This document shows positions 1-9,306 of a stretch of DNA of 9,306 nt, piece by piece (the first letter of the stretch is position 1; each line of letters begins with the position of its first letter). The translations under genes and the position numbers were made by a program. This DNA is from Anaerolineae bacterium (GTDB lineage Bacteria; Chloroflexota; Anaerolineae; 4572-78; J111), in assembly GCA_020433835.1 (NCBI GenBank), contig JAGRBY010000263.1, positions 1 to 9,306 of the forward strand. The letters run 5' to 3'. Below the pieces are notes generated by a model that searched no databases, was not told the origin of the DNA, and saw nothing but the letters and a program-made list of their open reading frames with translations.

Positions 1-860
1 TTGAGTTTCGATAAAGCGTGCTGTATCGTTTGCCAGGCCAGCGCATCCTGCCCCAGTCGGGCATAATGTTCGCTCAGTAGCGTCAGTAGAAACAGTTCGG
101 TTTTGGTATCTTTCAAGAGATAAAAGAAAGATAACGCCTGCTGGTAGAGTGCATTGGCCTGCTCATAGCGCCTCATCTGTTCGCAACAAAGTCCTAATCC
201 CAGTAGCGAGATGGCTTCAAATCTCTTCAATTGCCACTGTCGAGCTACGGCGATGGCACAACTATAAATGACATAAGGGTGCTCGACACGCTCTCGCTCA
301 GCCAGCCATTTTGCTTCCAAATCACTGATATCGTTCATGTAGCGAATCTGAAGGTGGATGCGCAAATCATTCAGAATAGCCGCCGCCGCTTTGCGCTCCT
401 CCATCAAGGTTTTAGGAATATCCAGATTGAAGTAGTGGAAAACCTCAACCGGATCAAGCCCTAACTCACCACAAATCAGCAACACGTTATAGGCAAAAAT
501 GGCTTTTTCCAGGTAATCTTGCCCTTTAGCTAACCCGTTCAGGTCGATTGCCGCTCCCATATTCATATGCCCTGCTATACCAAAGTTGAGTTGCGCTTGC
601 AAGCATTTGGGGCAAGTTGGCATCGGCTGGCTGGGGGGTTCAGTTATGTTTTTTATTGCAATGGCCCCGGAATAATCAAAAAATTCAGAATTGGCTGGGG
701 TATAGCCGCAGCCGGGACATTGGCCGGTTTCAAGCGGAATATTCACAATAGCCCGGCAGGTTTGGCATACGAATACACCCTTATACGTATTCCAGTGCCC
801 GATAGAAAATCGATCACCCTGCTGGCACTGGGTACAATAACTATTAACCATGTACGGCAT
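1..860 (-). CDS. Zinc-ribbon / TPR-like repeat protein (C-terminus beyond window)
   Basis: The gene runs off the left edge, leaving 286 readable residues. The start at 860 has AAGGAG eight bases upstream; a second ATG three codons later is too far from it. The N-terminal ~90 residues hold four Cys-x2-Cys pairs (C9/C12, C32/C35, C48/C51, C83/C86), which would suit two zinc-binding ribbons. A linker and an Ala/Glu-rich helical stretch follow (about 150-195). From about 210 the sequence is amphipathic helical hairpins of TPR character (for example RRYEQANALYQQAL). I infer a soluble scaffold or adaptor that binds partners through the helical repeats. It starts 20 bases after the four-helix membrane protein ends, so the two are very likely co-transcribed. 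No catalytic motif is visible and I do not recognise a named family. The real gene is confident; the TPR label is moderate. Confidence 0.82.
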   Translation of the reverse strand, partial: MPYMVNSYCTQCQQGDRFSIGHWNTYKGVFVCQTCRAIVNIPLETGQCPGCGYTPANSEFFDYSGAIAIKNITEPPSQPMPTCPKCLQAQLNFGIAGHMNMGAAIDLNGLAKGQDYLEKAIFAYNVLLICGELGLDPVEVFHYFNLDIPKTLMEERKAAAAILNDLRIHLQIRYMNDISDLEAKWLAERERVEHPYVIYSCAIAVARQWQLKRFEAISLLGLGLCCEQMRRYEQANALYQQALSFFYLLKDTKTELFLLTLLSEHYARLGQDALAWQTIQHALSKL

Positions 861-880: not shown

Positions 881-1318
881 CTAAACAATCTGTCCACCAA
901 AAAAGCGCCAGCGCGGAAAGCATATGCGCATTACTGATAGAGAAGCCAGGAAAATAGCCAACCAGACGGCGCTGTAGTGCAGTAGAAACTGCCACCACTC
1001 GATATCATCAGGATCAACCCAGGGAAGTTCCAAATCGAACACAGGCAAGCCCCAGATCAAAGCCGCAACCAGCAGCGCTTCAACAACTCCGGCAGCCAAT
1101 TGAAAGGCCGGCGGCCAATCGTGATCCCAACGATAGGTTTGCAGATGGTTATAGAGCGCGTCCCAGCCAAGGCCGATTACGGTTACATAGCCCAATATCG
1201 CAAAAGTCAGATAGTCATCATCTTCAAACAGCCACCAGAAAAAAGCGGTGACGGGTAAGCCTAAAATAAGGGTCAAGAAAAAACGTGTTTGCCAACGGCC
1301 AAAAAGTACAGGGGTCAT
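881..1318 (-). CDS. Small four-helix integral membrane protein, unknown function
   Basis: A 145-residue protein with four likely membrane helices at about 12-30, 37-54, 72-94 and 108-132. The loop between helices 1 and 2 is acidic (FEDDDY) and the one between helices 3 and 4 is acidic and Trp-rich (DLELPWVDPDDIEWW). A WDALYNHLQTYRWDHDW segment joins helices 2 and 3. The C-terminus is basic (RICFPRWR). By the positive-inside rule the basic N- and C-terminal ends would be cytoplasmic and the two acidic loops outside. The start at 1318 has TGGAGGA six bases upstream. It lies between the FHA-flavoprotein gene (172 bases upstream) and the zinc-ribbon/TPR gene (20 bases downstream). No enzyme motif is visible and I assign no function. 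That it is a real gene is supported by its fit to the operon and by its ribosome binding site. Confidence 0.8.
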   Translation of the reverse strand: MTPVLFGRWQTRFFLTLILGLPVTAFFWWLFEDDDYLTFAILGYVTVIGLGWDALYNHLQTYRWDHDWPPAFQLAAGVVEALLVAALIWGLPVFDLELPWVDPDDIEWWQFLLHYSAVWLAIFLASLSVMRICFPRWRFFGGQIV

Positions 1319-1490: not shown

Positions 1491-3962
1491 TTAGGGTTGT
1501 GCGCGGGTGGCCCATTTGCACCATTGCACCATTGAGCGTATCCCATTGAGCCGACGCAGACCGGGCGCTCGTAAGCGCGTCAAGGCATCTATGGAACGTA
1601 AGGCGGCGTATTGCAGGCCGAGAAAGCTATCGACCGGAGCATAGGGGCCGCCCAGAGTCATGACACCGCTGGCATAGAAGCGACCGTGATGGCTTTCGGT
1701 TTCATTGCGCATAGCTGGTACCTCGAAATCGTTGGCCACGTGCAGCCGGCCCTTGGCATTGCGTTCTAAGTTGTACAGATCCAACATATCTTTAAGCAGC
1801 GGATGGCTATCTATGCTCGAGTTGAGACCGGTAGCATCGATGATGAAATCGGCCAAAAGTTCGGTGTTTTCGTTAAAATGGCCGTAGCCGTCGATGGTCG
1901 TTACCAGTTTGTCGTTACGACGCTCAACTTTACTCACCCGACCAAAGCGGATTTGATACCAATACTCTTTAAGGCCGGTATCGACAATCTTGCGCCAATC
2001 GGCCCGGTCAGCCGTAGTTGAGCCGCCCCAGTCATTGTAGAGTTCATCACGCTCGTTGGTGTTGGCTTTTTCCAGCACGGCGCGCAGATCGCCGCCCCAG
2101 TTGGCTTTGGGCCAGTTAAACGGTTGAAACTCCCAATGGTGCTCAACCCGGCGTCCGGCCCGACCAAAGCGATTGCCGACTGGGCGCGGCGAGCGATTGA
2201 GGTGCAAAATAACAACCTTATCATTTTGCTTACGAACTTCGTAGAGGCGCTGAATAATACGCGAGGCAACAATACCGCGCCCCCGTACCAAAACGGTGCC
2301 ACCGTGTTGAACTAAATGGTCATAAATGTGATCGTGAGGTTCATAGGCGTTGACCACGTGTTCAAAATCGTTGGTTTGCTGTCGGTACGCTTGGAGGTCA
2401 GGTAGAAACTGAATACCCGGATACCCGATGGCCAAATGGACGTAGTTAGCTAGCATCAGTCGATACAGCGGTTTTTTGTCATTGTTGGTTTGAGAATAGG
2501 CAACCACGTAGCGTCCATCGTTGGTTTTGCGAATGGCCATAATGCGACCAAAGCGCCAGATGTGCTGCCAGCCAATGCGACGCGCTTCGGCCTCGATGGA
2601 TTGGTACACGTTATCGGAGATGGGGGTATAGGTGTTGGCCAGGGTTGGCTCGCCAAAAATAGTCCACATGACTTTGAGGGCATTACCGAGCCGAAAATGA
2701 AGCAGATCATGCCAGGCTTCACGAACAGCGTAGCCGGGCCAACCCCAGATATTATCCGGCGTGGAGCCGGAGTCACTTCGCAGCCGCTCGTGATTTGGAA
2801 TTTGCGAATTTCGACAAAGCTGACGATACCGCTCAAACGGTTTATCTTTGATGCCGATGACGGTAATAAGACCCAAATCAACGCCGGAATTGCGTAGATA
2901 ATCGACCCAGGTAAAGCTGCCCAGACCGCCACCTAAAGCCAAATAGGTGGTTTGATCGACCGGTACGCCCATCTGATGAATCTCCTCGACGGAAACTACC
3001 GGCTGGTTAAACGCCTCAGGCGGAAAATCGGGTTGCATCAGCCGGATGATTTCCGTTTCTGATGGAAAGGTTGTTTTACTGGTTACCCCATCATCAACAT
3101 AGGAGGAAGGTGGTTGGAGGTTGGTTAACGTTGTCAGGTTGGCTTCATCAGCGATGGCCGAAATAGATCGAACATGGGTGAAGGTTGTTTGTGCCTCTTC
3201 TTCCGATTGATCGTCACTATGCGGGCCAGACTTGGTTACCTTTAATTGATATTGACCAATGCGAATAGTGTCTTGAGGCATCAGCTTTGATGGCTGAGCT
3301 AGGCTTTGTTCACCGTCATTGATAAATGTCCCGGCGCTCGAGCCGGCATCGCTCACCACGATCTGATCGTCACGAATGTCGATTTTGGCGTGATGGCGTG
3401 AAATCGAGCGATCACCGGTAAGCGTAATCGTGTTTGTTTCAGCCCGACCTACTGTAATAGGAGGCTGGGTTGAAAGCCGGCGGGTTTCGTGGGTAACTGT
3501 GTTTTTCCACTCGACAACCAACTCTGGGGGCAAGCTCTGTTTTGCAGCCGGTGCAGCGGAGCCGTTGTAAAGCTCCTGTTCCAGGCCGACCAGCGTTGTT
3601 TTGGCATCAATAAGTTGGGTTTTATCGTGCCCGTTTTCAGAATGCCCATTGTCGGCAAACGTAACCGTAAAATTGAAAGGGCGAATGTCGAAATTGGCTC
3701 CGCTCACTACCGGATGGCGGGTGATGGGTTCCCCTCCCACATAAACGCCATTGCTGCTGCCCTCATCAATGAGCACAACCTGATCATCTTCGAAATCTAA
3801 ACGGGCGTGTCGACGCGATACCTGATGGCTGTTGAGGACGACGGTGTTTTGGTTGTCGCGCCCCAAGGTGGCCGGTAAATTAACATTTACCTCTTGCGGC
3901 TCACCGGTACCGTTATCTTCCCAACTGAGTTTTACTTGAAATGCTGCGGCGATATCAGACAT
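1491..3962 (-). CDS. FHA-FHA-flavoprotein oxidoreductase fusion
   Basis: An 823-residue cytoplasmic protein. FHA domain 1 (about 10-103) has LGRD (G34-R35), SRRHA (49-53) and GSSNG (69-72). FHA domain 2 (about 148-243) has VGRA (172-173), SRHHA (188-192) and GSSAGT, with Ala in place of the usual Asn. FHA domains bind phosphothreonine. A polar Ser/Thr/Glu-rich linker (about 245-330) follows. Residues 338-823 look like a two-dinucleotide-binding flavoprotein related to N-hydroxylating or Baeyer-Villiger-type monooxygenases: GGGLGS (344-349) for FAD, VRGRGIVAS (559-567) as the probable NAD(P)H Rossmann loop, and IIDATGL (707-713) near the C-terminus. No substrate can be assigned. An upstream in-frame ATG at 3980 overlaps the ribosome binding site, so 3962 is preferred. 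It follows the small FHA gene by 33 bases. The domain calls are confident; the exact reaction is not. Confidence 0.88.
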   Translation of the reverse strand: MSDIAAAFQVKLSWEDNGTGEPQEVNVNLPATLGRDNQNTVVLNSHQVSRRHARLDFEDDQVVLIDEGSSNGVYVGGEPITRHPVVSGANFDIRPFNFTVTFADNGHSENGHDKTQLIDAKTTLVGLEQELYNGSAAPAAKQSLPPELVVEWKNTVTHETRRLSTQPPITVGRAETNTITLTGDRSISRHHAKIDIRDDQIVVSDAGSSAGTFINDGEQSLAQPSKLMPQDTIRIGQYQLKVTKSGPHSDDQSEEEAQTTFTHVRSISAIADEANLTTLTNLQPPSSYVDDGVTSKTTFPSETEIIRLMQPDFPPEAFNQPVVSVEEIHQMGVPVDQTTYLALGGGLGSFTWVDYLRNSGVDLGLITVIGIKDKPFERYRQLCRNSQIPNHERLRSDSGSTPDNIWGWPGYAVREAWHDLLHFRLGNALKVMWTIFGEPTLANTYTPISDNVYQSIEAEARRIGWQHIWRFGRIMAIRKTNDGRYVVAYSQTNNDKKPLYRLMLANYVHLAIGYPGIQFLPDLQAYRQQTNDFEHVVNAYEPHDHIYDHLVQHGGTVLVRGRGIVASRIIQRLYEVRKQNDKVVILHLNRSPRPVGNRFGRAGRRVEHHWEFQPFNWPKANWGGDLRAVLEKANTNERDELYNDWGGSTTADRADWRKIVDTGLKEYWYQIRFGRVSKVERRNDKLVTTIDGYGHFNENTELLADFIIDATGLNSSIDSHPLLKDMLDLYNLERNAKGRLHVANDFEVPAMRNETESHHGRFYASGVMTLGGPYAPVDSFLGLQYAALRSIDALTRLRAPGLRRLNGIRSMVQWCKWATRAQP

Positions 3963-3995: not shown

Positions 3996-4430
3996 TTAGC
4001 TTTCCCAAAAAAGAACGGTGCCGTCCCACGGACATTGATCGAGAGCCGGGTTGACCAGCCGGTCGCAAGCCGGGTGAGGACAGTTGATCATAAATTTGCC
4101 GTTTGTCTCCGGGGGCCGGTAGCCCACTTGCAGGGTAACTCGGCCCAAACGCACCAGATAGCCGGATTTAAGGGGCGCGATCTGGTTATGGTCCAGCCGG
4201 CGGTTGTTAACATAGGTTACGCTGTTCTGGCTCAAGCTGCGGAGGTGAAAAGTGTTGTCTTGCAAGAAAATCTCGGCGTGTCGGCGGGACACCGAACTGT
4301 TGGGGTCGGATATGATCACCTGGCAGTTTCGGCTCCGGCCCAGACAAACCGGTTGACGAGCAACATCAAAATCGGTAATGGTCTGTTGGGCCGGCAGTCC
4401 GTTGATTTCCCAGTGTAATGTAATTTCCAT
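3996..4430 (-). CDS. FHA-domain protein with C-terminal zinc-ribbon-like tail
   Basis: A 144-residue protein, almost all one FHA domain (about 3-105). It shows LGRS (30-33), VSRRHAEI (47-54) and the QNSVTYVNN strand (68-76), in which Ser stands where FHA domains usually have Gly after the conserved Asn. FHA domains recognise phosphothreonine peptides, so this is probably a reader of the neighbouring kinase's output. The C-terminus (about 115-140) resembles a short zinc ribbon: C117, C122 and C133 in CPHPAC and CPWDG. A fourth Cys is absent, so D136 or a nearby His (H119) would have to complete the site, or no metal is bound. The start at 4430 has AAAGGAGAGAA upstream. It lies 73 bases after the kinase gene and 33 before the double-FHA gene. 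The FHA call is very secure. Confidence 0.92.
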   Translation of the reverse strand: MEITLHWEINGLPAQQTITDFDVARQPVCLGRSRNCQVIISDPNSSVSRRHAEIFLQDNTFHLRSLSQNSVTYVNNRRLDHNQIAPLKSGYLVRLGRVTLQVGYRPPETNGKFMINCPHPACDRLVNPALDQCPWDGTVLFWES

Positions 4431-4503: not shown

Positions 4504-6315
4504 TTATGGACAACCAAATGCGTCACTGGGAGCCAAGGCGTAATTAATTGTGTTGGGGCTTCTGTTGGCGATGCGGATGTAGTATTGTGTGTGGGGGACA
4601 ACACCGCCGGCCCAGACAATATCTTTGGTGTTTTCATCCCTATCGCGCCCGTTACCCGCTGGCAGGAGCGCCATGTGATCGACACCGGAGTCCGGATTAG
4701 CGGGCAACTGCCCATTAACGATTTGACTTTGGTTGTAAACAAACATCTCAACCCGCGTTTCATTTTGGATAAAGGCCGTAACCGTTGCGGTATTATTTTC
4801 ACCGGAGGAGAAGGTAAACCATTGATTGCCGCCCGCCCGTAACGTGTAGAAACCACAGCCACCGCCTAATCTTAGGGGAATTGGGCCGACTAGAGCGGGG
4901 GTTGGTGTCAGTGTCGCGGTTGGCGGTGAGGTGGGCGTAGGTGTTGGCAGTGCCACCGTACTCACCGGCACAGCGGCAAGCGAGCCATCCATCTCGATAA
5001 ATCTGGCCATCACCCAGCCCGCCGGTTCGGCTACTTCTAGCCATTGGTTATCGTTGGTACGGCTAACGATACGAATCTGCCCGCCGCTGGTTAATCGATC
5101 AAGGATGCCGGCATTGTTGGAAGGCGAATCGTAGATGGGTACGTTGCCGGTCGCAATGCCGGTTGGCTCACCGGCTGTTTCTGGGGGCGTTGCGGTTGCA
5201 GTAGCTGTCGCGATTGAGGTGGCTGTCGCTACGAGATTGAATTCGTTGGCGGTGGATATGGTTGCGGTAGGCGTTATCAATGTCTCTGCATTTTCGACAC
5301 CGGTCGATGTAATAATGGGTAAGCTAGAATCAGCACGGACATTCTCATTGTCAAATGTTGTAAGGAATAAAATCGAGCCAATAACAATAAAACTTACTGC
5401 GGCCAGCCCGATCCACTTCCACCCGACCGGAGATGGTGGAGGCGTTCTATCCGACTGCGAAACTGATTCTGACGTAGGTTGTGGTTTTACAAAAGATATA
5501 GGGCTGTTGCCTCTCTGAATGTGTTCCAACGTTTCTTGCCAATGCGCCACCGATGCTGGCCGATCGGCAGATCTTAATTCCATGGCGTGCATAATCGCCC
5601 GCGAAAGGGCCGGGCTTAGTTGCGTGTTGATTTTTTCCGGCGGAACAAACGCCTGGGTTTCTGTATAGCGTTTCGTGCTGGCCGGCGGTTTTTGGCCGGT
5701 GAGCAGGGTATACAACGTTGCTCCCAAGGCATAGATGTCAGAGCGCGGGTCGGTGTGGCCGGAATATTGCTCCGGCGGCGAGTATCCTTCGGTGACTGCT
5801 TTAGCGCCCAGCGCCGTATGGCCGCCGTCTTCAGCAATTTTGGCGATACCGAAATCAACCAATAACGCTTGGCCCTTGTGGGTAATTTTTATATTTTGGG
5901 GCTTGATATCGCGATGAATAATGTTTTGCCGATGCAGGTAAGCAACAATGCGGCAGACCTGTACCATATATTCAAGCGCTTGCTCTTGACTTAAAGGGCC
6001 ATTTCTTTTGACAATTTGCGCTAAGTCTTGGCCTTCGATCAACTCCATCACCAAATACTGTCTTTCGTTCTCGGTAAAGTCTTCAGTTACGCTAGGGAGG
6101 CCGGGGTGACGTAATCGGCGTAATACATCGGCTTCTGTTTTAAACTGTGAACTTCCTTCTTTGGTGACAAAATAGTTTTCTTTGATGGCTGTCGGTTTCT
6201 GTTGCTCTTGGTCAAAGGCGCGATAGACAGCACCCATACCCCCTTTAGCAATGATGCCGACGATACGATAGCGGTTTTTTAAGATGGTTTCTTTGGGTAG
6301 TAATTCCCGTTGCAT
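4504..6315 (-). CDS. Membrane Ser/Thr protein kinase with SH3b-like and beta-rich outer domains
   Basis: A 603-residue Hanks-type kinase. The catalytic domain spans about 16-267: glycine loop AKGGMGAVY (23-31), lysine K45, helix-C E61, HRDIKPQN (134-141), DFG (154-156), SPPEQY (179-184) and SDIYALG (192-198). All catalytic residues are present, so it should be active on Ser/Thr; the activation loop has candidate autophosphorylation threonines (T167, T175). A proline-rich juxtamembrane stretch leads to one membrane helix (about 300-319). Outside are a Thr/Ala-rich linker, an SH3b-like domain (about 386-441), a Pro/Thr stalk (456-474) and a beta-rich C-terminal domain (478-603) resembling PPC-type domains, with C487 and C602 able to form a disulfide. 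PASTA repeats are absent. The frame is open up to 6465, but that would overlap the previous gene; the ATG at 6315 has GAGGAGAG upstream. The FHA proteins next door are likely partners. Confidence 0.93.
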   Translation of the reverse strand: MQRELLPKETILKNRYRIVGIIAKGGMGAVYRAFDQEQQKPTAIKENYFVTKEGSSQFKTEADVLRRLRHPGLPSVTEDFTENERQYLVMELIEGQDLAQIVKRNGPLSQEQALEYMVQVCRIVAYLHRQNIIHRDIKPQNIKITHKGQALLVDFGIAKIAEDGGHTALGAKAVTEGYSPPEQYSGHTDPRSDIYALGATLYTLLTGQKPPASTKRYTETQAFVPPEKINTQLSPALSRAIMHAMELRSADRPASVAHWQETLEHIQRGNSPISFVKPQPTSESVSQSDRTPPPSPVGWKWIGLAAVSFIVIGSILFLTTFDNENVRADSSLPIITSTGVENAETLITPTATISTANEFNLVATATSIATATATATPPETAGEPTGIATGNVPIYDSPSNNAGILDRLTSGGQIRIVSRTNDNQWLEVAEPAGWVMARFIEMDGSLAAVPVSTVALPTPTPTSPPTATLTPTPALVGPIPLRLGGGCGFYTLRAGGNQWFTFSSGENNTATVTAFIQNETRVEMFVYNQSQIVNGQLPANPDSGVDHMALLPAGNGRDRDENTKDIVWAGGVVPHTQYYIRIANRSPNTINYALAPSDAFGCP

Positions 6316-6427: not shown

Positions 6428-8002
6428 TTATGGCAAACTACCAATTTCCAGGGTATCAAGCACATGGTAGAGATCGGTCAAGCTCAAATTGCGGGAAACC
6501 AGCGAAACGAACTGATTTTGGTTCGACTCGCTAGTCGTGAACGCGGCGATGAGAAAGGTGCTGTTATTCGGATCGCAGCCCAGGTAAACATCCAGCGCGC
6601 CGGAGTAGCGAGGATGATCGGTAATCGACAACCGCTGCGGCCCCTCACAACTGGTCAGATAATCGGGGTTGCCAAAGCTGTCCAGAAAAGCGGTTGGCTC
6701 TTGACTATCGCGTGGCACAACGAGCCGTAATCCCGGAATTGCGAAACGCGACTCGCGGAAATTAGCCGATTGACCGGGGGCATTGGCATTAATGGTGGCC
6801 GAGGTCACCGCCCCAAAACTATCGCGATCGGACTGGCCGTTGATTTCACCCCAGACACCGGGAACATCAACCTGAATTACGCCCAGATCATCAACCGCCA
6901 GGGTGTAAGGTGCAGTCGGATTTGGGGTAATCTCCGGCGTAGGTTCCGGTGTAACGATCGGTTCACTGTTGCCTTCATCGGTAGGTTCAGCAACAATGGT
7001 AGGCGTAGGTTCGGGCAACGGCTGGCTGCTAAAAAATGCACCATTTAACTGTTCGTTCGTAGACAACCGCACCAGTTGGTAGCGCAATTCGCTGCCCGGT
7101 TCGCGGTTGAGGACGGTGTCGCAGTAAGCTCGCAGCGTGCCGTCGGCGGCCAGTGGCACATCGCCCAGGTGCGTGATAATATCACCCCCTTGAATACCGG
7201 CGCGTTCGGCCGGCGATCCTGGTGCGACGGCTCGCACCCAGAGGCCGGTGAGCAGTTGACCATCTCGATCGATAGCCGTAGCCTGACCGTTGATGCCCAG
7301 GTTAAAGGGATCAGGCCCTTCCCGCAGATTTTGGATCCGTTGGTACAGCGTATCGACTCCCAGGGCAAGATGGGGTGCGCCGGTTTCATCCGCCAGATAG
7401 GTATAACCGAGCAACCGATTCTTTTCATCGAGCAAAGGCCCACCAAACCCATCGACATTGAAGGATGGATTATATTGAATAAAGCCTTCATTTCCCGCTG
7501 CCTGACTATTTTGAGCGCTTCCCGCTTGGCGAACAATCGTACTGGGGATGAGGGTAAAAGCGCCGTTATCAGTGGTTCGATCAGCCACAGATACCGTCTC
7601 GCCAATCTCGATCTCAAGTTCATCGTCCAGTTCCAGAGCCGGATAATCGTCATCTTGAACCGGCAGTTGGAGAATGGCCAGGTCATGACACTCAGCCACG
7701 CCGACCACCTGGGCTTGTACAGGTGTGGTTTGCTCTTCACCGATAAAGACACTGAAATTGCTAACCCCGGTAACGAGATGATGGGGTACAACCGCCAGCC
7801 CTGTTTCATCAAAAATAAATCCAGAGCCGGCTATCTCGGCGGCATCGGTGCCGTCGGGCTGGCGCAAGCTGCCTGTGGGTGCGACAATACGCAGCGTTGC
7901 GGTTTCCACCGTTTCCAGCGACGCGCCGGAACAGGCGGCTAATAGAAGCCCCGTCATCAACAGCATAACGGGAGCCAAGTGTTTCAGTCGATAGTGTTTC
8001 AT
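6428..8002 (-). CDS. Lipoprotein: HtrA/trypsin-like pseudoprotease with PDZ domain
   Basis: A 524-residue exported lipoprotein. The signal peptide ends at a clear lipobox (LLAAC, lipidated C24). Residues about 35-225 follow the trypsin/HtrA fold: GSGFIFDETG (59-68), a histidine at VVPHHLV (71-77) and DLAILQL (107-113) for the usual acid. The active-site motif reads DGFGGPL (184-190) instead of GNSGGPL, with codon TTT at the catalytic serine position (F186). It is therefore probably not a protease and may bind peptides. A PDZ domain follows (about 232-313, with GSPAERAGIQGGDII). A Pro/Glu/Thr-rich linker (328-365) leads to a C-terminal domain of unknown fold (366-524) with C452 and C476. The start at 8002 has TAGGAGAGA upstream; the longer frame from 8044 would bury the signal peptide. 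It sits 112 bases before the kinase gene, so it may be its extracytoplasmic sensor or ligand. Confidence 0.88.
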   Translation of the reverse strand: MKHYRLKHLAPVMLLMTGLLLAACSGASLETVETATLRIVAPTGSLRQPDGTDAAEIAGSGFIFDETGLAVVPHHLVTGVSNFSVFIGEEQTTPVQAQVVGVAECHDLAILQLPVQDDDYPALELDDELEIEIGETVSVADRTTDNGAFTLIPSTIVRQAGSAQNSQAAGNEGFIQYNPSFNVDGFGGPLLDEKNRLLGYTYLADETGAPHLALGVDTLYQRIQNLREGPDPFNLGINGQATAIDRDGQLLTGLWVRAVAPGSPAERAGIQGGDIITHLGDVPLAADGTLRAYCDTVLNREPGSELRYQLVRLSTNEQLNGAFFSSQPLPEPTPTIVAEPTDEGNSEPIVTPEPTPEITPNPTAPYTLAVDDLGVIQVDVPGVWGEINGQSDRDSFGAVTSATINANAPGQSANFRESRFAIPGLRLVVPRDSQEPTAFLDSFGNPDYLTSCEGPQRLSITDHPRYSGALDVYLGCDPNNSTFLIAAFTTSESNQNQFVSLVSRNLSLTDLYHVLDTLEIGSLP

Positions 8003-8015: not shown

Positions 8016-8071
8016 AACGTAAGTAAATGGTTTTTTAGATGCAACCACTCAAACTTCGAGGTGGTTTGGCT

Positions 8072-8511
8072 TTACACAAGATACGATTGCCCGACAAAGA
8101 TCAGGCCGTCCACAATGGCAATGGCCGCGAACCCTAACTTCAAGGCTCTGGGGCTGAGATATTGGGTAAAAAACGGGGCCGAACGCGCTCCAAAGACTGC
8201 CCCTAAAAGGGTGAAGATGGCCATATCCCACGGAATATCGTGAGCTGTGATTTGATGCAGCAGTGTAAGGTAGATGGAGCCGACGGCCAGTAGCACCACC
8301 CCTAACCCTACGCACCGCTCGATACGCAGGCCATAGACGAACATCAAAAAAACGGCCAGTGACGCTGCGCCAGAGTTGTCGGTTCGGGAAAGGCAACCAA
8401 CAGCACCACCAACCAGCCAATGGCAAACACCACCAGCCACCAGGAAAAATAGTGTGCCTTCGGCGGCGTTGCAGATGTACTATTACGTGGCAAAATTTGG
8501 GTAAGCGACAT
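8072..8511 (-). pseudogene. TauE/SafE-type permease remnant, internally deleted and frameshifted
   Basis: A first frame starts at 8511 (weak GGGG-type ribosome binding site) and gives 55 residues with one membrane helix (SWWLVVFAIGWLVVLLVAF), then reaches TGA at 8344-8346. A second frame continues at the same place and runs to the stop at 8072. It has several membrane helices and a tail (DIPWDMAIFTLLGAVFGARS, LSPRALKLGFAAIAIVDGL) that resembles the end of TauE/SafE (TSUP) anion exporters. The switch coincides with a run of seven T's on the coding strand (8346-8352); one extra T would join the frames into about 146 residues. TSUP proteins are usually about 250 residues or more, so most of the first repeat is missing as well. 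I infer a decayed gene with an internal deletion. A sequencing indel alone would not explain the short length. Confidence 0.7.
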
Positions 8512-8980: not shown

Positions 8981-9053
8981 GCCCCCGTAGCTCAGAGGAT
9001 AGAGCAGAGGTTTCCTAAACCTTTGGTCGTGGGTTCGACTCCCGCCGGGGGCG
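8981..9053 (+). tRNA. tRNA-Arg (anticodon CCT)
   Basis: A complete cloverleaf. The acceptor stem is GCCCCCG with CGGGGGC and the discriminator is G9053. The D-arm is GCTC/GAGC. The anticodon stem is GAGGT with ACCTT, around a seven-base loop TTCCTAA whose anticodon is CCT (9014-9016). The variable loop has five bases and the T-arm is GTGGG/CCCGC with loop TTCGACT. The 3' CCA is not encoded (CAC follows). It decodes the AGG arginine codon. A tyrosine recombinase begins 60 bases downstream, so the 3' end of this gene is a likely integration site. Confidence 0.97.
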
Positions 9054-9062
9054 CACACTTGC

Positions 9063-9113
9063 CCGTTTCTCTCTGGTAGATATGCCTTCTGCCACGAGAG
9101 GAGCGGCTTTTTT
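9063..9113 (+). terminator. Intrinsic terminator after the tRNA, overlapping the integrase ribosome binding site
   Basis: The 5' arm 9063-9080 pairs with 9088-9106 over 18 base pairs (three G-T wobbles, one bulged C at 9095) around a seven-base loop (TATGCCT). The T-run 9108-9113 follows after one C. The 3' arm contains the purine-rich AGAGGAG (9097-9103), the only Shine-Dalgarno candidate for the ATG at 9114. The hairpin would therefore stop tRNA transcripts and also mask the integrase start on any read-through RNA. Confidence 0.8.
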
Positions 9114-9306
9114 ATGCACTTCGACCAAAGTACCCCATCCGTTACCAGTACATCTGTGTTCGAGGAAGCGCTTGCGATTTTCATGCTGGACATGAAGGCG
9201 CGGCGCCTTTCACCCCACACTTTGGACTTCTACAGAGACAGATTGGGCCGGGCCTTCGCCTGGTTCCAAGCACACGAAGTCACCCACGTCGGCCAGCTGA
9301 CGGCCA
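9114..9306 (+). CDS. Tyrosine recombinase/integrase, N-terminal part (cut by window edge)
   Basis: Sixty-four residues are readable before the window ends. Residues about 14-64 match the N-terminal SAM-like core-binding domain of XerC/XerD-type and phage integrases: VFEEALAIFMLDMKARRLSP, then HTLDFYRDRL, with the typical SPxT (33-36) and a following aromatic-rich helix (FAWFQAHEV). The catalytic domain (Arg...His-x-x-Arg...Tyr) lies beyond the edge, so activity cannot be judged. The start has AGAGGAG ten bases upstream, inside the terminator's 3' arm. The frame is open upstream back to a stop at 9000-9002, so a different start cannot be fully excluded. The gene's place right after tRNA-Arg implies an integrated phage, plasmid or genomic island continuing to the right, with this enzyme catalysing its insertion and excision. 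Confidence 0.85.
   Translation, partial: MHFDQSTPSVTSTSVFEEALAIFMLDMKARRLSPHTLDFYRDRLGRAFAWFQAHEVTHVGQLTA

Follow-up and report, generated by a model that had tools for sequence, protein, structure and literature searches.

Two FHA domains fused to a predicted flavoprotein in an Anaerolineae bacterium, and a small membrane protein that accompanies this flavoprotein family

With which protein does a flavoprotein that carries FHA domains work? The question is raised by a gene on the minus strand of a 9306-nucleotide stretch of DNA from an Anaerolineae bacterium (contig JAGRBY010000263.1 of assembly GCA_020433835.1; the whole stretch is designated hereafter as the window), which encodes two FHA domains joined to a predicted flavoprotein oxidoreductase. 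A preliminary description read the gene, together with a neighbouring Ser/Thr kinase gene, as an oxidoreductase gated by phosphorylation. In the sampled genomes, the strictest companion of the flavoprotein gene is one that this description did not mention, encoding a small membrane protein designated hereafter as MEM, which is probably the working partner of the flavoprotein. Loci, genomes and matching proteins are cited by L, G and P numbers, P0001 being the window protein.

Alignment-based searches for each gene, with a threshold of E<=0.001 in Cyanobacteriia, found MEM and the flavoprotein in the same 40 of 145 genomes and neither in the other 105, while full-length MEM and flavoprotein were found in the same three of 301 Chloroflexota genomes. 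At least two of the counted genomes (G003 and G108) also supplied rows to both alignments. MEM was located within 1 kb downstream of the flavoprotein gene in 36 of 48 loci, ten of which show a four-base stop/start overlap, and a homologue of SF, a small FHA protein, was encoded within 1.2 kb upstream in 33 of the 48. The loci were not drawn at random: a scan supplied L001-L029, whereas L032-L051 were chosen from the searched genomes, unlinked cases included; L032 and L009 are one contig, and the 48 loci thus represent 47 distinct places. One split gene in G120 gives two rows, and touching pairs in G122 and G142 were set as 'up' by a tie rule. Linkage alone is insufficient to explain the matched presence, since the two genes lie 1.64 Mb apart in G107 and on different contigs in six of the 40 genomes; in two of these six (G018 and G065) the flavoprotein gene lies close to the end of its contig, and the genes may be linked there. 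A mirror-tree analysis gave a correlation of r 0.88 across 46 pairs (0 of 2000 permutations), which gives weak support in view of the species history common to both genes; L027, L028, L030, L031 and L032 were left out, L001 is without MEM and L025 is represented by one piece of a split gene. As a control, a YHS-like neighbour gene of ten distinct loci was found in 37 of the 145 cyanobacterial genomes, 14 of which carried the module, using a single-sequence search that is less sensitive than the two alignments. This gene showed no significant association as a module partner (14/40 vs 23/105, Fisher p 0.14). It scores below the Pfam cut-off and is located just downstream of MEM in the cyanobacterial loci L010, L011, L014-L017, L021-L023 and L027.

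The flavoprotein gene is a single uninterrupted frame with an ATG at position 3962 and AAAGGAGAG upstream of it (Table 1). Pfam analysis confirmed the two FHA domains, with PF00498 (4.5e-31, in two stretches; 107.5 bits, above the gathering score of 20.7) and PF16697 (6.3e-21), and every motif that had been listed is present: SRRHA (residues 49-53), SRHHA (188-192), GGGLGS, GRGIVAS and DATG. FHA domains bind phosphothreonine through Arg, Ser/His and Asn residues, and those of the first domain are intact (Arg35, Ser49, His52 and Asn71). Position 210 of the second domain is Ala, a site occupied by Asn in 106 of 115 aligned sequences, and P0002 from Anaerolineales, the closest relative among the matches listed (89% identical in the enzyme part), shows the first FHA domain only; two FHA domains are therefore not the rule for the family. 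A frameshift or chimera joining two genes is ruled out, as many assemblies carry the fusion in one frame: FHA domains are present in 115 of the best 120 matches (the window's own included) and the fused frame is open in most loci. Four of the five proteins without FHA are short (495-527 aa) and encoded on contigs of 1.5-4.8 kb. Broken or split flavoprotein copies occur in L025, L027, L028 and G120, and the copy in L001 ends early. In Planktothrix (L027, 7920-10127; genome G009), a flavoprotein without approximately its last quarter continues in frame into MEM, giving 735 aa; elsewhere G009 also has another MEM gene and a full-length copy of the flavoprotein gene, about 1.7 Mb from each other.

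The family is large, with at least 2502 matches to the C-terminal part among 7999 scored candidates and 55-64% identity to the window protein for P0004-P0120 of the best 120 matches; members that have a name are named for the FHA domain only. By record name, the 29 loci from reference genomes comprised 20 Cyanobacteria, seven Chloroflexota, one Rhodothermaceae and one 'proteobacterium', and the fusion is common in Cyanobacteria (full-length flavoprotein in 40/145 Cyanobacteriia genomes) and scattered in Chloroflexota (3/301). In the phylum of the Rhodothermaceae locus (L005) the seed was the sole positive among 148 genomes, and this copy is perhaps from a mis-binned contig. In the class of L003 (Anaerolineae by record name), the seed was again the sole positive (1/150), for flavoprotein and MEM both. 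The architecture had been inferred to be novel, which overstates its rarity given this family size and a precedent in plant zeaxanthin epoxidase (see below). The module itself was described nowhere in the literature searched, which covered titles and the starts of abstracts, with most subscription journals and preprints outside coverage; the portion of PMC2176072 seen mentions no oxidoreductase, flavoprotein or FAD (flavin adenine dinucleotide).

A rival explanation has the adjacent kinase gating the oxidoreductase and treats the presence of MEM as incidental. It agrees with the intact binding residues of the first FHA domain and with the same-strand gene cluster of the window, in which the kinase and a single-FHA protein, both noted in the preliminary description, are encoded upstream. 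A kinase gene of some kind, whichever its strand, was present within the fetched stretch of 22 of 50 loci; on the same strand and within 3 kb, just 8 of 50 loci had one, and the kinase was rejected as a constant partner on these counts. MEM was found in 43/43 genomes with a full-length flavoprotein (40/40 and 3/3). Gating by the adjacent kinase with MEM incidental is thus very unlikely; what stands of the earlier proposal is a genuine FHA-flavoprotein fusion in which the phosphothreonine-binding residues of FHA1 are intact, while gating by phosphorylation is a conjecture and the kinase is not a constant part of the locus. Trypsin-like protease frames, judged by eye, occur near kinases up- or downstream of the module in L011, L014, L015, L018 and L023, recalling the HtrA-kinase pair of the window.

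For the enzyme part, an FAD/NAD(P)-type fold had been suggested, and structure prediction agreed: an AlphaFold model gave a two-dinucleotide flavoprotein fold for residues 333-806, a confident prediction. Neither Pfam nor NCBIfam returned a row with its best stretch in residues 325-823 of the window protein at E<=1, and PHROGs gave no match with homologue P0083, the only query. A search of solved structures with P0001 gave FHA relatives and otherwise chance-level rows only (BphD-type hydrolases, E 0.36; ferredoxin reductase, E 0.95), and a 22-sequence C-terminal profile found no relative in the PDB below E 0.9, with one chance row at E 0.91. An Arg at position 590, just past the second strand of the second domain, is invariant in 115/115 sequences, and use of NADPH (reduced nicotinamide adenine dinucleotide phosphate) is proposed on this basis. 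A Cys seems to alternate between two columns three residues apart (Cys383 in 13 and Cys386 in 9 of 22 sequences).

The best Foldseek matches of the predicted fold were N-hydroxylating monooxygenases (PvdA, SidA, KtzI; PF13434), which likewise have two dinucleotide loops and a late ATG motif. Identity to these enzymes is 11-16%, and the window protein differs from them in its FHA fusion and membrane companion. The protein could be a soluble monooxygenase, N-hydroxylating or otherwise of class-B type, whose substrate is a small metabolite, with FHA placing it in a complex and MEM serving as exporter or anchor. Against this, PF13434 gave no row for P0001 at E<=1, the 22-sequence profile had no PDB relative below E 0.9, and no cluster of neighbour genes other than the kinase and the YHS-like gene occurred in more than six loci (most neighbours being without annotation). 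We consider a monooxygenase of this kind unlikely. VIA-align ranked YpdA first (Z 25.3, root-mean-square deviation 2.8, 318 aligned), a member of the YpdA/Bdr bacillithiol disulfide reductases of the thioredoxin-reductase-like group. TIGR04018, the model for YpdA/Bdr, gave no row for P0001 and far sub-cutoff rows for FHA-free relatives only. YpdA has its catalytic Cys in the first glycine loop, where none of the 29 sequences compared has a Cys.

MEM belongs to a family with at least 1336 matches among 7999 scored candidates; no Pfam domain was found in the best 120 matches listed, and named rows were mostly 'hypothetical protein', with one 'predicted permease' and one 'KefB'. In Pfam, MEM gave sub-cutoff rows only (DUF1422, E 0.13; TctB, E 0.86), and PF03116 (NQR2/RnfD/RnfE) gave no row for it at E<=1. 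A model built from 128 sequences showed four long helices (predicted local distance difference test 88.5, predicted template modelling score 0.81) with no fold match in the PDB. Lys and Arg cluster at the two termini (mean 2.0 for the N-terminal and 4.0 for the C-terminal end), suggesting a four-helix topology with both termini in the cytoplasm. Columns with one residue in at least 95% of sequences make up 9/12 of the N-terminus, 5/9 of the middle loop and 8/18 of the C-terminus, compared with 0/6 and 2/13 of the two outer loops, and the best-conserved non-helical stretches would thus lie on the predicted cytoplasmic side. The N-terminus, MTPxLxGRWQ[TS]R, offers candidate phosphothreonine sites, and a Thr in it as the FHA ligand is a guess. 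A paired-His heme site is unlikely: His114 is present in 127/128 sequences, but residue 66 is Arg in 31/128. In L057 (4539-5366, minus strand), MEM has a C-terminal extension ending CxC...CxxC that resembles the Cys pairs of SF, as if a zinc-ribbon-like part had moved between MEM and SF.

Four weaker, FHA-free flavoproteins of 410-480 aa were found in the Chloroflexota search (L052, L053, L054 and L055). In differing combinations, they exceed the curated cut-offs of Pyr_redox_2/3, NAD_binding_9, FAD_binding_3 or Lys_Orn_oxgnase (the last within a few bits of its cut-off), in some cases by less than one bit; L053 passes one of these models alone, Pyr_redox (PF00070), by 0.4 bits. Each flavoprotein gene is immediately followed, on its own strand, by a gene for a MEM-related protein starting MC...GRxxTR. 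In a filter-free search against MEM, these neighbours gave E 1.1e-4 (L053), 2.7e-4 (L055), 0.12 (L052) and 2.1 (L054), and a profile of all four aligned with MEM over 129 columns with a probability of 95.3 and E 2.2e-8 for that single comparison. The flavoprotein-membrane pair thus appears older than the FHA fusion, because FHA-free flavoproteins also adjoin MEM-like domains. The stretch following the MEM-like domain in L052 resembles P0242, an NQR2/RnfD/RnfE protein, and those of L054 and L055 align with it, followed by FG-GAP and UnbV/ASPIC domains. NqrB/RnfD (PF03116) is thus linked through one intermediate to a stretch that MEM itself does not have. Beside the FHA-free flavoprotein, the combination of MEM-like domain, RnfD-like stretch and FG-GAP/UnbV_ASPIC repeats spans 1924-5445 in L054 and 888-4016 in L055.

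We propose that the flavoprotein would be a cytoplasmic NADPH- and FAD-dependent enzyme of the two-dinucleotide-domain type, obligately paired with MEM and docking on its conserved cytoplasmic face; docking is suggested by the conservation of that face together with a soluble partner found alongside in every sampled genome. Electrons would pass from NADPH to FAD and on to a membrane-borne acceptor or a lipid-soluble substrate, at the membrane. The FHA domains would be a later addition through which a Ser/Thr kinase might control docking or localisation via a phosphothreonine, possibly in the N-terminus of MEM, in SF or elsewhere. This reading, an NADPH/FAD flavoprotein in an obligate pair with MEM, engaged in membrane redox and with FHA as a later regulatory addition, has in our judgement about an even chance of being right. 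A more specific version is doubtful as a whole, in which FHA-flavoproteins of a cyanobacterial and Chloroflexota membrane redox module would deliver NADPH electrons to or through MEM, a phosphothreonine switch would time their meeting, and the ancestor, without FHA, would be linked to fusions of MEM-like domains with RnfD-like proteins.

Several observations weigh against the proposed pairing and chemistry. The final glycine of the FAD loop is replaced by Ser in 113/115 sequences, and the residue after the second strand, Glu or Asp in 109/115, is Lys in the window protein and Gln in 8/22 of a wider set; FAD binding is for these reasons not certain. The same altered loop and non-acidic residue, shared by the window protein and many cyanobacterial members, would suit a redox or NAD(P)H sensor devoid of catalysis, in which the fold reads a nucleotide or flavin state and FHA and MEM relay the signal, and the partners are of a signalling type; the strong conservation across the fold (the 55-64% identity given above) and the invariant motif residues argue against such a sensor, which we find distinctly improbable. 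No recognisable cofactor site was found in MEM, its helices also contain conserved columns (4/18, 6/24, 1/25 and 2/20) and the middle loop carries a net negative charge, which leaves the predicted topology dependent on the two ends. Of the candidate phosphothreonine sites, Thr2 is Ile in 5/128 sequences and residue 11 is Ser in 14/128. At the search threshold, the flavoprotein was found in seven Chloroflexota genomes vs three for MEM, the additional four being distant partial matches to the FHA-free proteins, next to which the MEM alignment failed to pick up the MEM-like genes. The exact p of 1e-36 for co-occurrence ignores relatedness and is not a true probability. Two of the four MEM-like neighbours score E 0.12 and 2.1 only, the RnfD link depends on one intermediate sequence, and PF03116 was not detected in L054, L055 or L053.

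Six consecutive genes on the minus strand of the window encode, in order, an HtrA-like protease, the Ser/Thr kinase, SF, the FHA-flavoprotein, MEM and a TPR-like protein (Table 1), with intergenic gaps of 112, 73, 33, 172 and 20 bp and a purine-rich ribosome-binding sequence upstream of each start. The same order from HtrA to flavoprotein was found in L001, another Anaerolineae bacterium, where the contig then ends; by sequence clustering, the HtrA-like protease is common only to the window and L001 among the loci examined. The kinase C-terminus has a weak SH3-like match (PF08239, 20.4 bits, below the 27-bit cut-off), and the TPR-like gene runs off the window edge. Further upstream, at 8049-8440 on the minus strand, two overlapping frames correspond to the C-terminal part of a TauE/SafE protein (PF01925, 6.3e-8), a gene that may be broken. 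A transfer RNA gene for Arg (cct) at 8981-9054 on the plus strand precedes an integrase-like frame starting at 9114 (Phage_int_SAM_1, E 0.0034, below cut-off), and 8981-9306 is possibly the edge of an integrated element.

Table 1. Features of the window, all on the minus strand
Feature	Position	Strand	Basis and remarks
FHA-flavoprotein gene, 823 aa	1491..3962	-	Single open frame; AAAGGAGAG before ATG; large family
FHA domain 1, residues 32-90	3693..3869	-	PF00498; alignment column counts
FHA domain 2, residues 166-244	3231..3467	-	PF16697/PF00498
Predicted two-dinucleotide flavoprotein domain, residues 333-806	1545..2966	-	AlphaFold model
First (FAD-type) glycine loop GGGLGS, residues 344-349	2916..2933	-	G344, G346, G348 invariant in 115 sequences
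Second (NADPH-type) glycine loop GRGIVAS, residues 561-567	2262..2282	-	Followed by invariant Arg590
DATG motif, residues 709-712	1827..1838	-	D709, T711, G712 invariant in 115 sequences
MEM, 145-aa four-helix membrane protein	881..1318	-	Presence matches that of the flavoprotein in sampled genomes
SF, small FHA protein with C-terminal Cys pairs (zinc-ribbon-like)	3996..4430	-	PF00498 1.2e-14; alignment; 33 bp upstream of flavoprotein gene
Ser/Thr kinase	4504..6315	-	PF00069 7.2e-43; 73 bp upstream of SF
HtrA-like protease with PDZ	6428..8002	-	112 bp upstream of kinase; membership uncertain
TPR-like protein with N-terminal Cys pairs	3..860	-	TPR rows below cut-off; 20 bp downstream of MEM; membership uncertain

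A precedent for the fusion is plant and algal zeaxanthin epoxidase, whose enzyme part has the FAD_binding_3 (PHBH-type) fold. The corresponding model, PF01494, gave no row for P0001, and two of the FHA-free relatives, L052 and L055, score just above its cut-off. Zeaxanthin epoxidase is an NADPH/FAD enzyme with a C-terminal FHA domain and is suspected to be regulated by phosphorylation, and the importance of this FHA domain was still to be clarified according to a 2025 paper (PMC11429058, PMC12570779). The window protein joins FHA to a predicted flavoprotein fold in the opposite domain order, and no other FHA-FAD enzyme came up in the literature searched. Agrobacterium Fha offers an example of FHA docking to a membrane protein that is phosphorylated on threonine: it binds phosphothreonine 14 of TssL, a protein of the inner membrane (PMC3953482); that system differs from the module in being a secretion system without a flavoprotein and with another membrane protein.

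The new element here is the strict pairing with the MEM family, which shifts what deserves testing first and brings to light a membrane protein family without a name that tracks the full-length flavoprotein in every sampled genome. A bacterial FHA-FAD protein would make the question of the zeaxanthin epoxidase FHA domain testable. If the proposal is true, phosphothreonine reading and flavin redox in one polypeptide would tie bacterial Ser/Thr kinase signalling to NADPH metabolism.
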